53,747 bases of DNA from a virus (IMGVR_UViG_3300033159_000001:1-53747); one strand, 5' to 3'. Counted from the first letter of the stretch, positions 1 through 53,747 are shown. Numbers and translations are program-made. The notes: generated by a model from the letters alone, not told the origin.

Positions 1-253
1 TGTCGAGCAGCCACGAAAGAACGACGCTCTCGTGCACACGGTAGTTCGTCGCGAGAGTCGCGATGATCTCGTCGTCGGTGGGGCGCTTCGGTGCGGCGGC
101 GCGACCAGTCCGGGCGGGTGTCTTGACCGGCTGCGCGGCGGCCACGGCAGGCGTGCTGGCGGCCGCAGTCGGCGCGAAGCTGGCTTCCTGAGATGCGGTC
201 TGTTCGGCGGCGCACGCCTGCGCCTGACGAGTCTGTTCGAGTCGTTCTTCCTC
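1..253. repeat. Left copy of a 253-base end repeat
   Basis: Bases 1-253 are the same as 53495-53747 apart from position 128 (c here, a at 53622). The difference is synonymous in the exonuclease gene that runs through the repeat. The unique genome length is therefore about 53494 bases. It may be assembly overlap of a circular or permuted molecule, or real terminal redundancy; the sequence alone does not decide. Confidence 0.95.
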
Positions 254-4501: not shown

Positions 4502-4519
4502 TACGAAATAAATAAATTC

Positions 4520-5014
4520 TTAAATTTTGACTCTGCGGACCGCGCGAACCCGGCCTTTGACGTTCTTGCCGTCCGCAAACTGGAAGCCATATGCGAAACC
4601 CTGGCACCAAGCGCCGTAGGCCGAGGACTGCGTGCTCGACCAGTACCAGGAGGGCGCAAATTTTTCGGCGATCGTCGCGTAGCAGAGGTTCAGCTCACGC
4701 TGGGCCGGCAGATAGAAATCGGTGTGTCCGTCTTTCGAGTACTCCGCGGCCCAGGCGGCGGCCGGGTGCTTCGAAGTCGCGCCAAGAAGTGCCCGCGTGT
4801 TCGCGGCACCGTCGAGCCGGCTGTCGCACTCCGGAACCTTCATGCCGTACGGACCCCACTCGAAATCCATGCCTTCGTCGAGCGAAGCGATCAGGTGGTA
4901 GTCGGGCGCGTCGCCTTGGCCGGGCATCAGGCCGGCGTAAATGCCGCCTTGGCCCTCCCAATAGACGCCAAGGCGTGGTGCGACGAGAACGGGTTTGTCT
5001 TGGACTTCGGACAT
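4520..5014 (-). CDS. DGR target protein 1 (DUF1566/C-type-lectin-like variable domain)
   Basis: 164 residues. The C-terminus carries variable repeat 1 and reads SWYWSSTQSSAYGAWCQ...KGRVRAVRRVKI, the Trp/Ser/Gln-rich end typical of DUF1566 (Lcl-like, C-type-lectin or FGE-type folds) used by DGR target proteins. Upstream are the family features 'AANTRALLGA' and 'FYLPAQRELNLCYA'. Compared with the template, the changed residues are those encoded by AAC/AAT-like codons. No signal peptide or membrane span is visible. It sits near the start of the leftward operon, about 8.5 kb from the template across the sequence ends. The presumed role is ligand binding with a diversifiable site; the ligand is unknown. 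Confidence 0.9.
   Translation of the reverse strand: MSEVQDKPVLVAPRLGVYWEGQGGIYAGLMPGQGDAPDYHLIASLDEGMDFEWGPYGMKVPECDSRLDGAANTRALLGATSKHPAAAWAAEYSKDGHTDFYLPAQRELNLCYATIAEKFAPSWYWSSTQSSAYGAWCQGFAYGFQFADGKNVKGRVRAVRRVKI
4532..4633 (-). repeat. DGR variable repeat 1 (VR1)
   Basis: 102 bases aligning without gaps to the template repeat at 49379-49480. There are 18 differences, all at adenines of the template sense strand. The constant 3' segment (CGGGTTCGCGCGGTCCGCAG in sense orientation) acts as the expected initiation-of-homing region. The bases after it resemble those after VR3. Confidence 0.95.
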
Positions 5015-47780: not shown

Positions 47781-48262
47781 GCTGCCCACTCCATGAGTTG
47801 AGTGTCATACCCGAGCATCAGCGGATGCTTCGGGTCACCTCCCTTTGTGAAGCCGAATATCTTCACTGGCTTGCCGGCGCCGAGAATGCGATGCGCCAGC
47901 GTGTCGAGATGTGGCCGCAGCGCCGCGGGCAACTTCGTGCGATCTCCCCAGCACGGGACAAGCAGGTCCGCGTCCGCGATGATCTGGCCAAGATGCATGT
48001 CGTTGAATGGGCCGACCGGATCGAGAACTCGCGAGAGCTCGCGAACGTCGCGCGCACGGTATGCGAACGGGTTGCCGGCGACGTACTTGCGCGCGCCGAG
48101 CAAACGCCCGAAGCCGCGCCACTTCATGTCGGTCTGGTCCGGGATGATCGAATCCGCCCACGACGGATTAACGCCAAAGAACGCGACCACGATTCCGACA
48201 AGCTGCAACTCGCGCTCGAGGCGGTACCGGTATGTGCCACATTCGCTGATGATCGCGGTCAT
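47777..48262 (-). CDS. DUF1643 protein
   Basis: 161 residues. Family pattern: YRYRLER, then FFGVNPSWAD, DMKWRGFGRLLGARKYVAGNPFAYRARD and 'FGFTKGGDPKHPLML' near the end. It overlaps the reverse transcriptase stop by four bases, so the two genes are translationally linked. Biochemical function unknown. Confidence 0.8.
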   Translation of the reverse strand: MTAIISECGTYRYRLERELQLVGIVVAFFGVNPSWADSIIPDQTDMKWRGFGRLLGARKYVAGNPFAYRARDVRELSRVLDPVGPFNDMHLGQIIADADLLVPCWGDRTKLPAALRPHLDTLAHRILGAGKPVKIFGFTKGGDPKHPLMLGYDTQLMEWAA

Positions 48263-49584
48263 TGTTTGACCTTCGTGCGGTATGTCTGCGTGAACGTCCT
48301 GTTGACGACGTGTCCTCGGTACCGAACGACGTTCGCGATTCGAGCGCGATCGTGATGGCTCGCCGGCGCCTGACCGAGCAAGCCGAAATAGCTGTTAGCG
48401 ACAGGCAGGAAGTCTCCTTCATTGACCTGCGCCACGCGGCGAATTGCTTCGTTCACAGTGCGGCGGCGCGTCGTGCGGGACCATGGCTTGATCACGTGGC
48501 CGACGAAGTCCACGCCGCGCGCGATCGGCTGAAGCACGGTTTTCTTCGGATTGAGCCGAACACCGAGGCGCGCCGGCAGGAAAGCGTCGACCTCGGCCAG
48601 CACCGCGTTTAGCCAGTCGGCAGACGGGTGCAGGAACAGGAAATCGTCCACATAGCGCACGTAGTAACGCGCGCCGAGCTGGTGTTTTGAGCGCTGGTCG
48701 AGCACGTCGAGATAGACGTTGGCGAAGAACTGTGACGACAGGTTGCCGATCGGCAGGCCGAGATGATCCGGCTGGCTAGTCAGGCGCTTGTGCGGCGGCA
48801 CACGATCAATCAGCACCGGGTCGCCGCGGAACTCGAAGTTGGTTCGCGGATCGTGCATAAGCACGGTGTCGGTCAGATTCATCCACCACGCTTCATTGAT
48901 CTTGCGAGCGAGCAGCTCGCGCAGCTTCAGTTTGTCGATGCTGACGAAGAAATTCGCAATGTCGCACTTCAGGTAGTAAGCCGGCCGAGACCAGTTCTGC
49001 GTAATGCTCCGGATCATCGCCTCGAGCTGCTCTGCGGCATAGAGCGTGCCGCGACCAGGAATGCATGCGCAACTATTGGCGATGAAAGAGTTTTCGAAGC
49101 GCGCCGCGATGCGGTTGTAAAGCAGGTGGTGAACGACGCGATCGCGAAAGTCCGCCGCCCACACTTCGCGCGCCTTCGGACGTGTCACGACGAAACAGAT
49201 CGAGCGGCCCGGCTGATACGAGCCGTCGATCAGTTCGTCATGCAGCTGCGACAGGTTACGTTCGAGGTTCTGTTCGAATTCGAGTGCGTTTCGCGTGTTT
49301 CGCTTTGTGCGACGGCAGTCGAAGTACGCGAGAACGAGCTCTTCGAACGTGAGAGCCTCGCTTCCAGCATCGTAATAATCTGCGGACCGCGCGAACCCGG
49401 CCTTTGTTGTTCTTGTTGTTCGCATTCTGGTTGCCATTTGTGAAATTCTGGTACCAAGCGTTGTTGGCCGAGTACTGCGTTCATTCGCACTATCTACGTC
49501 GCCAGGCCGAAGGCTATCGCCGATCGACGAGGAAACTGCACCAGACCGATCCCGGTTACTCCCGGTGGTATCTGTGATGTGCAT
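48259..49584 (-). CDS. DGR reverse transcriptase
   Basis: 441 residues if it starts at ATG 49584-49582 (AAGGA seven bases upstream); ATG 49629 is an alternative. The RT core starts near residue 77 (TFEELVLAYFDCRRTKRN, then GRSICFVVTRPKAREVWAADFRDRVVHHLL). It has 'YLKCDIANFFVSID', LPIGNLSSQFFANVYLD (the DGR-type G-x-x-x-SQ motif, about 277) and YVRYVDDFLF with catalytic YVDD (about 311). No ATG, GTG or TTG exists in frame between the template repeat and the conserved core, so translation must begin in or upstream of the template. It copies template RNA with adenine infidelity. Confidence 0.93.
   Translation of the reverse strand: MHITDTTGSNRDRSGAVSSSIGDSLRPGDVDSANERSTRPTTLGTRISQMATRMRTTRTTKAGFARSADYYDAGSEALTFEELVLAYFDCRRTKRNTRNALEFEQNLERNLSQLHDELIDGSYQPGRSICFVVTRPKAREVWAADFRDRVVHHLLYNRIAARFENSFIANSCACIPGRGTLYAAEQLEAMIRSITQNWSRPAYYLKCDIANFFVSIDKLKLRELLARKINEAWWMNLTDTVLMHDPRTNFEFRGDPVLIDRVPPHKRLTSQPDHLGLPIGNLSSQFFANVYLDVLDQRSKHQLGARYYVRYVDDFLFLHPSADWLNAVLAEVDAFLPARLGVRLNPKKTVLQPIARGVDFVGHVIKPWSRTTRRRTVNEAIRRVAQVNEGDFLPVANSYFGLLGQAPASHHDRARIANVVRYRGHVVNRTFTQTYRTKVKQ
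49379..49480 (-). repeat. DGR template repeat (TR)
   Basis: 102 bases, non-mutated donor for the three variable repeats. In the target frame it reads TQYSANNAWYQNFTNG..., rich in AAC/AAT codons that can become most other residues by adenine changes. It lies within the reverse transcriptase frame, directly upstream of its conserved core and about 150 bases after avd. Confidence 0.96.
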
Positions 49585-49634
49585 GTCGGTATCCTTGTGA
49601 GATAGCGGTGCGACCAGATTAAATCGCATAGACC

Positions 49635-50006
49635 TCACCGCCTTGACGATGAAGTAACGAGCGACGATGCGGATTGCTTCTTCCATCCACCGGCCTGTTT
49701 GCCCACTTGTTCGGTTAGCGCGATCGCGGCCGCGTATTGCTTGGTCGCGATGAACCGCATGTCTCTGGACAACCTGAGCAGAAGATTGACCACTTCAAGA
49801 CGCTCGAGCAGATCGTTCAGATGCGGTACCTTGTCCATTGCCGCATTGGCGCGAAAGATCAGCGTTACGATCTTCAGCGTCTCCGCTCGAATCTCTCCGC
49901 CGAGCGATTGCTTGAAATCGCGCGGCATATGGCGAGTCGATTCCGTGACCTCTCGGAAGAGGTCGTACGCGACCTTGTAAATGGGCAGGGCGGTGGTAAT
50001 GGCCAT
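49635..50006 (-). CDS. avd: DGR accessory variability determinant
   Basis: 123 residues (Bordetella phage Avd 128). The four-helix-bundle pattern of Avd/S23-type proteins is visible: LPIYKVAYDLFREVTEST, 'PRDFKQSLGGEIRAETLKIV', 'LNDLLERLEVVNLLLRLSRD' and ATKQYAAAIALTEQVGKQAGGW. It forms a basic pentamer that binds template RNA and the reverse transcriptase. Its placement between target and TR is standard for DGRs. Confidence 0.9.
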   Translation of the reverse strand: MAITTALPIYKVAYDLFREVTESTRHMPRDFKQSLGGEIRAETLKIVTLIFRANAAMDKVPHLNDLLERLEVVNLLLRLSRDMRFIATKQYAAAIALTEQVGKQAGGWKKQSASSLVTSSSRR

Positions 50007-50022
50007 GGTTAATTTTTAAATT

Positions 50023-50610
50023 TCAAAAGTCCAATCTGCGGACCGCGCGAACCCGGCCTTTGTCGCTCTTGCCGCCCGCATCCTGGGTGCCACTCGTGAA
50101 ATACTGGCACCAAGCGTCGCCGGCCGAGTACTGCGTAGACGTCCAGTGCCACTCTCGGATGAACAGGTCAGGAACGTTCGCGTAAAGCACCGCGCTTTCT
50201 CGCTTCGAGGGTACGTAATAGTCACGGTGACATTCGAACTCCACCTCGCTGCACTTGCGAGCTGCAGGATGATCGCCGGTGGCAATCAGTGCCTGCGTGT
50301 TTGCGTATCCGTCGAACTCGTCCTTGGCGCCCGGCACGTCAACGCCGTAGCCTCCCCACTCCACGTCGCCGAAGGCGCCGATCGTGTCGGGGGAGATGAT
50401 CAACCAGTACGGCCGGCCATCGGCATGCCGCGCGAGGCCACCATTGAACCCGCCTTGGCCGGGCCAAACTTCACCGATACGCGGAACGCTGCGCACAGCT
50501 TCTTCGGTACGGCCCATGACCTTGTCGAGCCATGCGTTGATGGCAACATCCTTGGGCACGCTCAGCTTGCCGCCGTGGAACGGAACTTCGATTTCGCTTG
50601 TGTTGCTCAT
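50023..50610 (-). CDS. DGR target protein 2
   Basis: 195 residues from ATG 50610-50608 with GGAG upstream. The C-terminal DUF1566/lectin-like domain has 'YANTQALIATGDHPAARKC', YYVPSKRESAVLYANV and the variable end REWHWTSTQYSAGDAWCQYF...KGRVRAVRRLDF. An N-terminal 50-residue helix (NAWLDKVMGRTEEAV) distinguishes it from target 1. No export signal. It lies directly upstream of avd. Confidence 0.92.
   Translation of the reverse strand: MSNTSEIEVPFHGGKLSVPKDVAINAWLDKVMGRTEEAVRSVPRIGEVWPGQGGFNGGLARHADGRPYWLIISPDTIGAFGDVEWGGYGVDVPGAKDEFDGYANTQALIATGDHPAARKCSEVEFECHRDYYVPSKRESAVLYANVPDLFIREWHWTSTQYSAGDAWCQYFTSGTQDAGGKSDKGRVRAVRRLDF
50035..50136 (-). repeat. DGR variable repeat 2 (VR2)
   Basis: 102 bases aligned without gaps to the template: 15 differences, all at template adenines. 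Its 3' junction (AATCTGCGG on the plus strand) matches the template slightly further than VR1 and VR3 do. Confidence 0.95.
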
Positions 50611-50672
50611 TGATGCTTTCTCCAATGGTTCGATGCGATCGGTCGTGATGCGCCTTCGAAATGATTGAATTT

Positions 50673-51293
50673 CTAAATTTTGACTCTGCGGACCGCGCGA
50701 AGCCGGCCTTTGCCGTCCTTGCCGTCCGCACCCTGGTAGCCATCTGCGAAACCCTGGTACCAAGCGCTGAGGGCCGAGTACTGCGTGCTTGTCCAATACC
50801 ACTCGTCGGCGAAGGACTCTGCGCCGCCTTCACGGAACAGTTCGACGGGCGTCTGGCCCGGCAGGTGGATCGAATACGGATAGCCGACCGGCAGACTGCT
50901 CGGGTTGTCGCCGCTGCGGTAGACGTAGTTCTCTTCGGTGGTCGGCTTGAAGCCGCGGTAGAGCAGCTCGACCTGATCGCGCGCGCCGATGTGCCAGTCG
51001 TCGAAACCGCCGATACGCAGCTCGAGCACCTGTTGTGCGATCTCGCTGCCGGCCTCGGCCATCGCCTTGGTATTGGCGAGTCCGTCGAAGAAACTGTCGG
51101 CTCCCTCGATCAGCTTGTAATCGGGATGCCAGATGACCGGACCGAGATCGCCTTCGTTCTTCGGCGCGACGACTTGTGCGAACACGTCACCGTTGAAGGT
51201 GATGATGCCGGCGAAGTAACCGCCTTCCCACGGCGTGCCGAAAACGGTCGGAACTTCCTGCTTTGCCAGTGGCAGATTTGAGATTGCGTTCAT
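50673..51293 (-). CDS. DGR target protein 3
   Basis: 206 residues from ATG 51293-51291 with TGGAG upstream. 'ANTKAMAEAGSEIAQQVLEL' and 'HIGARDQVELLYRGFKP' correspond to the DUF1566 body; the variable end is DEWYWTSTQYSALSAWYQGF...KGRLRAVRRVKI. It contains an inserted loop (about 130-165) relative to target 1. No signal peptide. It is the first gene of the DGR cassette proper. Confidence 0.92.
   Translation of the reverse strand: MNAISNLPLAKQEVPTVFGTPWEGGYFAGIITFNGDVFAQVVAPKNEGDLGPVIWHPDYKLIEGADSFFDGLANTKAMAEAGSEIAQQVLELRIGGFDDWHIGARDQVELLYRGFKPTTEENYVYRSGDNPSSLPVGYPYSIHLPGQTPVELFREGGAESFADEWYWTSTQYSALSAWYQGFADGYQGADGKDGKGRLRAVRRVKI
50685..50786 (-). repeat. DGR variable repeat 3 (VR3)
   Basis: 102 bases aligned to the template: 17 differences, 16 at template adenines. 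The exception is position 50702 (g versus template c) in the constant 3' part, which changes Val to Leu. Confidence 0.95.
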
Positions 51294-53450: not shown

Positions 53451-53747
53451 TCAGAACGCGGTTGCCAGACGTTCGTTGGCCGCCTCGAGGTTCATGTCGA
53501 GCAGCCACGAAAGAACGACGCTCTCGTGCACACGGTAGTTCGTCGCGAGAGTCGCGATGATCTCGTCGTCGGTGGGGCGCTTCGGTGCGGCGGCGCGACC
53601 AGTCCGGGCGGGTGTCTTGACAGGCTGCGCGGCGGCCACGGCAGGCGTGCTGGCGGCCGCAGTCGGCGCGAAGCTGGCTTCCTGAGATGCGGTCTGTTCG
53701 GCGGCGCACGCCTGCGCCTGACGAGTCTGTTCGAGTCGTTCTTCCTC
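53451..53747 (-). CDS. YqaJ-family exonuclease, C-terminal part (continues at the left end)
   Basis: The last 98 codons of the exonuclease, ending TGA 53453-53451. Most of it (53495-53747) duplicates the left end of the window, and the other 44 bases complete the gene. The sequence is Ala/Pro-rich, then a helical end (DEIIATLATNYRVHESVVLSWLLDM). Confidence 0.88.
   Translation of the reverse strand, partial: EEERLEQTRQAQACAAEQTASQEASFAPTAAASTPAVAAAQPVKTPARTGRAAAPKRPTDDEIIATLATNYRVHESVVLSWLLDMNLEAANERLATAF
53495..53747. repeat. Right copy of the 253-base end repeat
   Basis: Same as 1-253 except a at 53622 (c at 128). It shows that the molecule is circular, circularly permuted or terminally redundant. 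Confidence 0.95.

Follow-up and report, generated by a model that had tools for sequence, protein, structure and literature searches.

The virus sequence IMGVR_UViG_3300033159_000001 (53,747 nucleotides, positions 1-53747; hereafter the window, which is the whole IMG/VR virus record) carries a diversity-generating retroelement (DGR) in which a single template repeat (TR) is matched by three variable repeats (VRs), each at the 3' end of a lectin-fold gene. All parts of the element, namely the reverse transcriptase (RT), the accessory protein Avd, the one TR and the three VRs, are on the minus strand:

48259..49584 (-), RT coding sequence, 441 aa counted from the leader ATG, reading through the TR in a second frame
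49377..49480 (-), template repeat, 3' end CAGAUU at 49377-49382
49478..49666 (-), structured 5' leader RNA (Rfam RF03018, RT-15), which ends where the TR begins
49612..49620 (-), invariant leader motif AAUCUGGUC, its AAUCUG complementary to the TR 3' end CAGAUU
49635..50006 (-), avd, accessory protein of 123 aa, Pfam bAvd
50023..50610 (-), target gene 1, 195 aa
50033..50136 (-), VR1, 15 A-differences to the TR
50006..50034 (-), VR1 tail, a weaker match to phased ATT repeats, ending at the avd start codon
50673..51293 (-), target gene 2, 206 aa
50683..50786 (-), VR2, 16 A-differences and 1 non-A difference within the 102-bp repeat
50656..50684 (-), VR2 tail, phased ATT repeats, clear fit
4520..5014 (-), target gene 3, 164 aa, C-type-lectin/Lcl_C fold
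4530..4633 (-), VR3, 18 A-differences to the TR within the 102-bp repeat
4503..4531 (-), VR3 tail, phased ATT repeats, clear fit; absent after the TR

An earlier note, made from the sequence alone, had placed the element at 48259-51293. The RT, avd, the TR and two targets are found there, but the third target lies far outside that span.

Adenine-specific variation in the window

The RT contains the motifs IGNLSSQ and YVDD and matches PHROG 1423. By sequence, its nearest solved structure is the RT of the DGR of Bordetella phage BPP-1 (8ub7, 2e-37; runner-up 3e-9). The Avd-like protein matches Pfam bAvd (2e-14) and the PHROG "Avd protein of DGR" (2e-32); the match is above the Pfam cut-off and below NCBIfam's own cut-off. 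When the whole window was scanned with the adenine-masked TR, only four matches exceeded 60%: the TR itself and the three VRs, with 93-100% of the 73 non-A positions identical. Over the 102-bp repeat VR1, VR2 and VR3 have 15, 17 and 18 mismatches to the TR, respectively. TR adenines account for 49 of these 50 differences (binomial p = 3.6e-22 against a background of A = 35/103 of the repeat), and the sole non-adenine difference is a G>C in VR2. Each of the three VRs bears different A-changes.

The recount agrees with the 49 of 50 given in the earlier note. Its description of one template serving three targets is borne out by the RT motifs, the Avd matches and the masked scan, and the different A-changes of the three VRs support adenine-specific retrohoming onto three genes. 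The cassette is a genuine DGR, one whose single template serves to diversify three lectin-like genes.

Target number and activity in relatives

RT scans covered 80 IMG/VR loci, 80 genome contigs (mainly Paraburkholderia, Burkholderia, other Burkholderiales, and Pseudomonas) and later 82 further IMG/VR loci. TR/VR pairs were counted in the first two sets, in which some loci are the same contig twice. In the 329 TR/VR pairs of these relatives, 4212 of 4333 differences (97%) are at A, and every VR is on the RT strand. At least two VRs are present in 137 of the 152 relative loci having a VR. A target profile found at least two targets in nearly all of 46 whole records, after subtraction of the one TR match per record that the raw count includes. 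Two or three targets are typical of this large phage family (about 150 relatives). Multi-target DGRs are already known (PMC3521204, PMC6642488, PMC10743442), including those with 2-4 VRs that DiGReF gives for Burkholderia, Ralstonia, Collimonas and others (PMC3521204); the window adds a new member. Five VRs were noted at locus L054 and four at L079. In Polaromonas and Variovorax (L144, L152, L159) three closely spaced targets lie at about -0.7, -1.3 and -1.9 kb.

In pairs of close relatives, the VRs differ at 186 of 411 A positions (45%) versus 11 of 978 other positions (1%). The TR differs at 6 of 1389 positions (0.4%), and 453 of 3750 positions differ in the 250 nt that precede the VR. One pair (L058 and L061) has identical RT and upstream sequence, and one VR differs between them at 9 A and 2 non-A positions. 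Adenine-only polymorphism of the VRs beside a stable TR, which had been suggested as a check, is therefore seen between close relatives. Because the VRs change at A while the TR is nearly fixed, the family appears to be active.

In the window phage the VRs are identical in both assemblies (the window and its sister contig L007), so activity is seen in relatives only. This identity, and the fact that the phage is known from metagenome only, would fit a decaying, inactive cassette in which the A-differences are relics. Such decay is very improbable, however: the three target frames, avd and RT are all intact, there are almost no non-A changes, and A-only change is ongoing in relatives.

A structured RNA 5' of the template repeat

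At the avd-TR stretch the window matches RT-15 over the full model with 168.6 bits (gathering score 82). RT-15 was kept in 14 of 14 sampled relatives, where it also ends at the TR start. In an alignment of 60 diverse leaders, 97.4% of cells are paired and 22 of 44 pairs have compensatory double changes, whereas slid alignments used as a control reach 26-41%. The conserved structured RNA thus sits 5' of the TR, on the opposite side from BPP-1, which has a 144-nt structured spacer (Rfam Phage_DGR, RF03022) 3' of its TR and no leader. The RF03022 model has no match in the window even at E 10, and neither of the two models matches the other's element when BPP-1 and the window are compared.

A 3' spacer hidden inside the RT gene was considered and ruled out. 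The distance from the TR to the RT core is -8 to +25 nt in the clade, and conservation at 4-fold sites within the first 60 RT codons does not exceed that in the rest of RT; since synonymous conservation is not raised 3' of the TR, no conserved spacer is hidden there. In Rfam, RT-15 is named only as RT-associated, while here it is tied to a TR, VRs and Avd. No account of RT-15 as a DGR RNA was found in a literature search that did not extend to Wu 2018 (PMC5758913) or to the paper first describing RT-15. As far as that search shows, the identification of RT-15 as a leader RNA in a lineage of DGRs is new, as are the absence of the 3' spacer, the complementarity between leader and TR end, and the VR tail.

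The template repeat inside the RT reading frame

The listed RT open reading frame of the window reads through the TR, and this overlap of the TR with the RT coding sequence is a departure from BPP-1. Among 76 relatives, the RT frame has 0 stops in 2572 TR codons, where the two other frames have 27 and 7; in the leader it has 5 stops in 3301 codons versus 148 and 118. After the TR there is no ATG in any of the 76 and no start codon of any kind in 73 of them. The stretch from the leader ATG to the TR end is a multiple of three in 56 of 60 sequences, despite 12 different lengths. In nearly all of the clade RT therefore starts before or inside the TR, at no single site, and in the window the likely start codon is either the ATG at 49584 or one that follows it within the TR. 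Some loci, namely the distant relatives (RT identity 47-51%) and a few more, do have start codons after the TR. An RT that always starts at the leader ATG is ruled out by relatives lacking this ATG or having the frame closed inside the TR. A TR overlapping the end of the RT open reading frame had been classed earlier as "group 3" in DiGReF (PMC3521204). The available part of that paper deems the arrangement irrelevant, with TR and RT separately transcribed, and describes no leader RNA.

The position of RT-15 could also be explained by a plain BPP-1-type DGR, in which RT-15 would only regulate RT translation and the RNA recruiting RT and Avd would lie within the RT coding region 3' of the TR. 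RT-15 does cover the start codon (the ATG of most relatives) together with a Shine-Dalgarno-like AAGG, which sits in a helix about 10 nt upstream of the ATG, and the order avd-TR-RT is that of BPP-1. This explanation is unlikely given the unremarkable 4-fold sites, the lack of any conserved RNA 3' of the TR and the failure of the BPP-1 spacer model to match. In addition, one relative (L111) keeps RT-15 though its RT frame closes 72 nt ahead of the RT core, which rules out the leader ATG as its RT start, and another (L165) keeps RT-15 yet has a later start codon.

The tail of the variable repeats

The conserved 3' end of the VRs is CCGCAGA, followed by a tail in which ATT recurs in 8-nt phase (positions 10, 18 and 26 after CAGA). 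The phased pattern was present in 30% (strict) or 53% (loose) of 227 VR tails, compared with 0.2% and 4% after shuffling, and in 0 of 117 TR tails. In BPP-1 the VR is instead followed by a GC hairpin with a GAAA loop, and a GC hairpin with a GRNA loop is required for homing (PMC3240598). A BPP-1-like GRNA-loop hairpin was searched for in 230 tails and found in none; any GC hairpin occurs in 26 of the 230, none of them in the window. Five distant relatives with 47-51% RT identity (L158, L162, L163, L165, L166) keep the phased ATT tail, which in most is directly followed by a GC-rich inverted repeat. This combination is perhaps a bridge to the BPP-1 target type.

Complementarity of the leader to the template end and a proposed mechanism

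The mechanistic understanding of DGRs rests on BPP-1. There the enzyme is recruited by a spacer on the 3' side of the template, and an adenine in this spacer primes the cDNA (PMC12875486). In retrons, a 5' msr pairs with the 3' end of the template just before the priming nucleotide (PMC6868368). In the clade studied here, the leader is complementary to the TR end in 1083 of 1176 cells across 196 loci, against 1049.6 +- 3.7 after shuffling (0 of 5000 shuffles; the shuffles ignore relatedness). One subclade has AUUUG in the leader and mostly CAAAU at the TR end, a change from C-G to U-A.

Adenine specificity, family activity, the 5' leader structure, the TR/RT overlap, the lack of a conserved 3' RNA and the VR-tail element were all obtained by comparison. 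The best explanation of the whole, to which we assign a probability of roughly 85%, is a functional DGR of a P22-like phage with a 5' leader and ATT-marked targets. One transcript probably carries avd, the RT-15 leader, the TR and RT. RT and Avd would make a cDNA of the TR that carries errors at adenine positions, and this mutated cDNA would replace the VRs with which the three lectin-fold genes end. The leader may take over the role of BPP-1's 3' spacer, with AAUCUG pairing with CAGAUU and fixing the cDNA start as msr does in retrons, and the VR tail may mark the acceptor sites. For cDNA priming by the leader in particular the odds are about even. They are equally balanced for the broader proposal of a major phage DGR lineage in which the RT-15 leader pairs with the TR 3' end to start the cDNA, template and RT mRNA are one RNA, and acceptors are marked by ATT.

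Besides the identical VRs of the two assemblies, several observations count against this picture. More than a third of the loci have broken leader/TR-end complementarity at one position or more, mostly at the outermost pair, and ACCAGA within the TR is an alternative pairing partner for this stretch of the leader. The leader ATG is absent in 5 of 60 sequences. In a subgroup from Pseudomonas the RT frame closes within the TR, whose second half contains ATGs; RT must start inside the TR there, so that the start site is not fixed. By codon-position entropy, the reading frame of the leader is not clearly under protein constraint. The mid-TR pairing UCUGGU/ACCAGA, obtained with RNAalifold, is nearly invariant, lacks covariation and is uncompensated in the U-variant subclade; it is kept as an alternative only.

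If leader priming is true, the priming step is not universal among DGRs, and these elements would be linked to retrons. Retrons likewise have a 5' structured RNA followed by the template and the RT, and their 5' part pairs with the template 3' end (PMC6868368), but the window has a DGR RT, Avd, adenine mutagenesis and apparent retrohoming. A 2'-5' branched RNA-cDNA is a mark of retrons. The RT-15 RNA family would gain a function. Under the broader proposal any gene given a CCGCAGA/ATT-type 3' end would become a target. The element would also be a compact multi-target hypermutation system with a testable acceptor site.

Role of the target proteins

The targets match the Lcl_C/DUF1566 C-type-lectin family with E from 2e-4 to 7e-7, which is below the Pfam cut-off. 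A fold model of target 3 (pLDDT 96) has its best PDB match in the Legionella Lcl C-terminal domain (E 1e-5) and also matches other C-type lectins. In this model the VR falls in the C-terminal C-type-lectin fold. Cassette and terminase lie on opposite strands in the window, as they do in 15 of the 16 relatives for which a terminase was found, and this fits expression with early genes.

Three varied binding surfaces had been proposed for the phage. Diversification of three genes from one template stands, and a receptor-binding role on the virion is the part that we infer. The targets are probably virion binding proteins produced from an early-type operon. An intracellular role, or one exerted on the lysogen, for instance by diversified proteins that bind those of the host or of rival phages, is less probable, although the proteins are short (164-206 aa), no anchoring domain is evident in any of the three (judged by eye and family matches only), and the targets adjoin recombination and early genes, as in Burkholderia phage Magia. 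The strand opposite the terminase would suit such a role as well. No intracellular partner is known, however, and most of the C-type-lectin DGR targets so far examined in phages are proteins of the tail or of attachment (PMC8144416). Virion binding is thus most likely, ranked above the intracellular role.

Genome context and comparison with known phages

The host of the cassette is a temperate P22-like phage. Its plus strand carries portal, scaffold and head genes resembling those of P22, and the genome also has an integrase. The ends of the window are direct copies of a 253-bp sequence that differ only at 53622:

1..253 (+), first copy of the terminal repeat, matching 53495-53747 apart from that one position

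Because of this repeat, and because the sister contig L007 spans the junction of the window ends, the genome is circular and complete at 53,494 bp. On the circle target 3 shares the strand of target 2 and lies about 6.7 kb upstream of it. Between them, also on the DGR strand, is an Erf-type single-strand annealing protein (1531-2430), which could assist annealing of the mutagenic cDNA to the VR. A Megablast search of 30000-53747 found no close relative among named phages.

BPP-1 (NC_005357) shares with the window a homologous RT, Avd, the order target-avd-TR-RT, adenine mutagenesis and a lectin-fold target with the VR at its 3' end. The earlier note's likening of the element to BPP-1 holds for adenine mutagenesis; it needs qualifying for the RNA element, the TR/RT overlap and the VR-tail element, all of which differ. 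BPP-1 also has one target where the window phage has three, and its cassette is on the structural-gene strand, while that of the window is opposite to the packaging genes and its targets are short.

Magia (MT701587) belongs to the same clade, with 72% DNA identity over most of RT. It encodes Avd and is temperate, and it has two short lectin-fold targets, one about 6 kb off, where the window has three (PMC7883833). Unlike the window phage it is a myophage, and its announcement describes neither the leader RNA nor the TR/RT overlap (PMC7883833). A RecT-type annealing protein occupies a place in Magia similar to that of Erf in the window. Among other records, OK094664 and OP650936 (Shewanella phage vB_Sb_QDWS and "Hujiaoplasma phage zrk29-1") agree in length (47,902) and in their match values, which looks as though a single phage had been submitted twice, with very different hosts.

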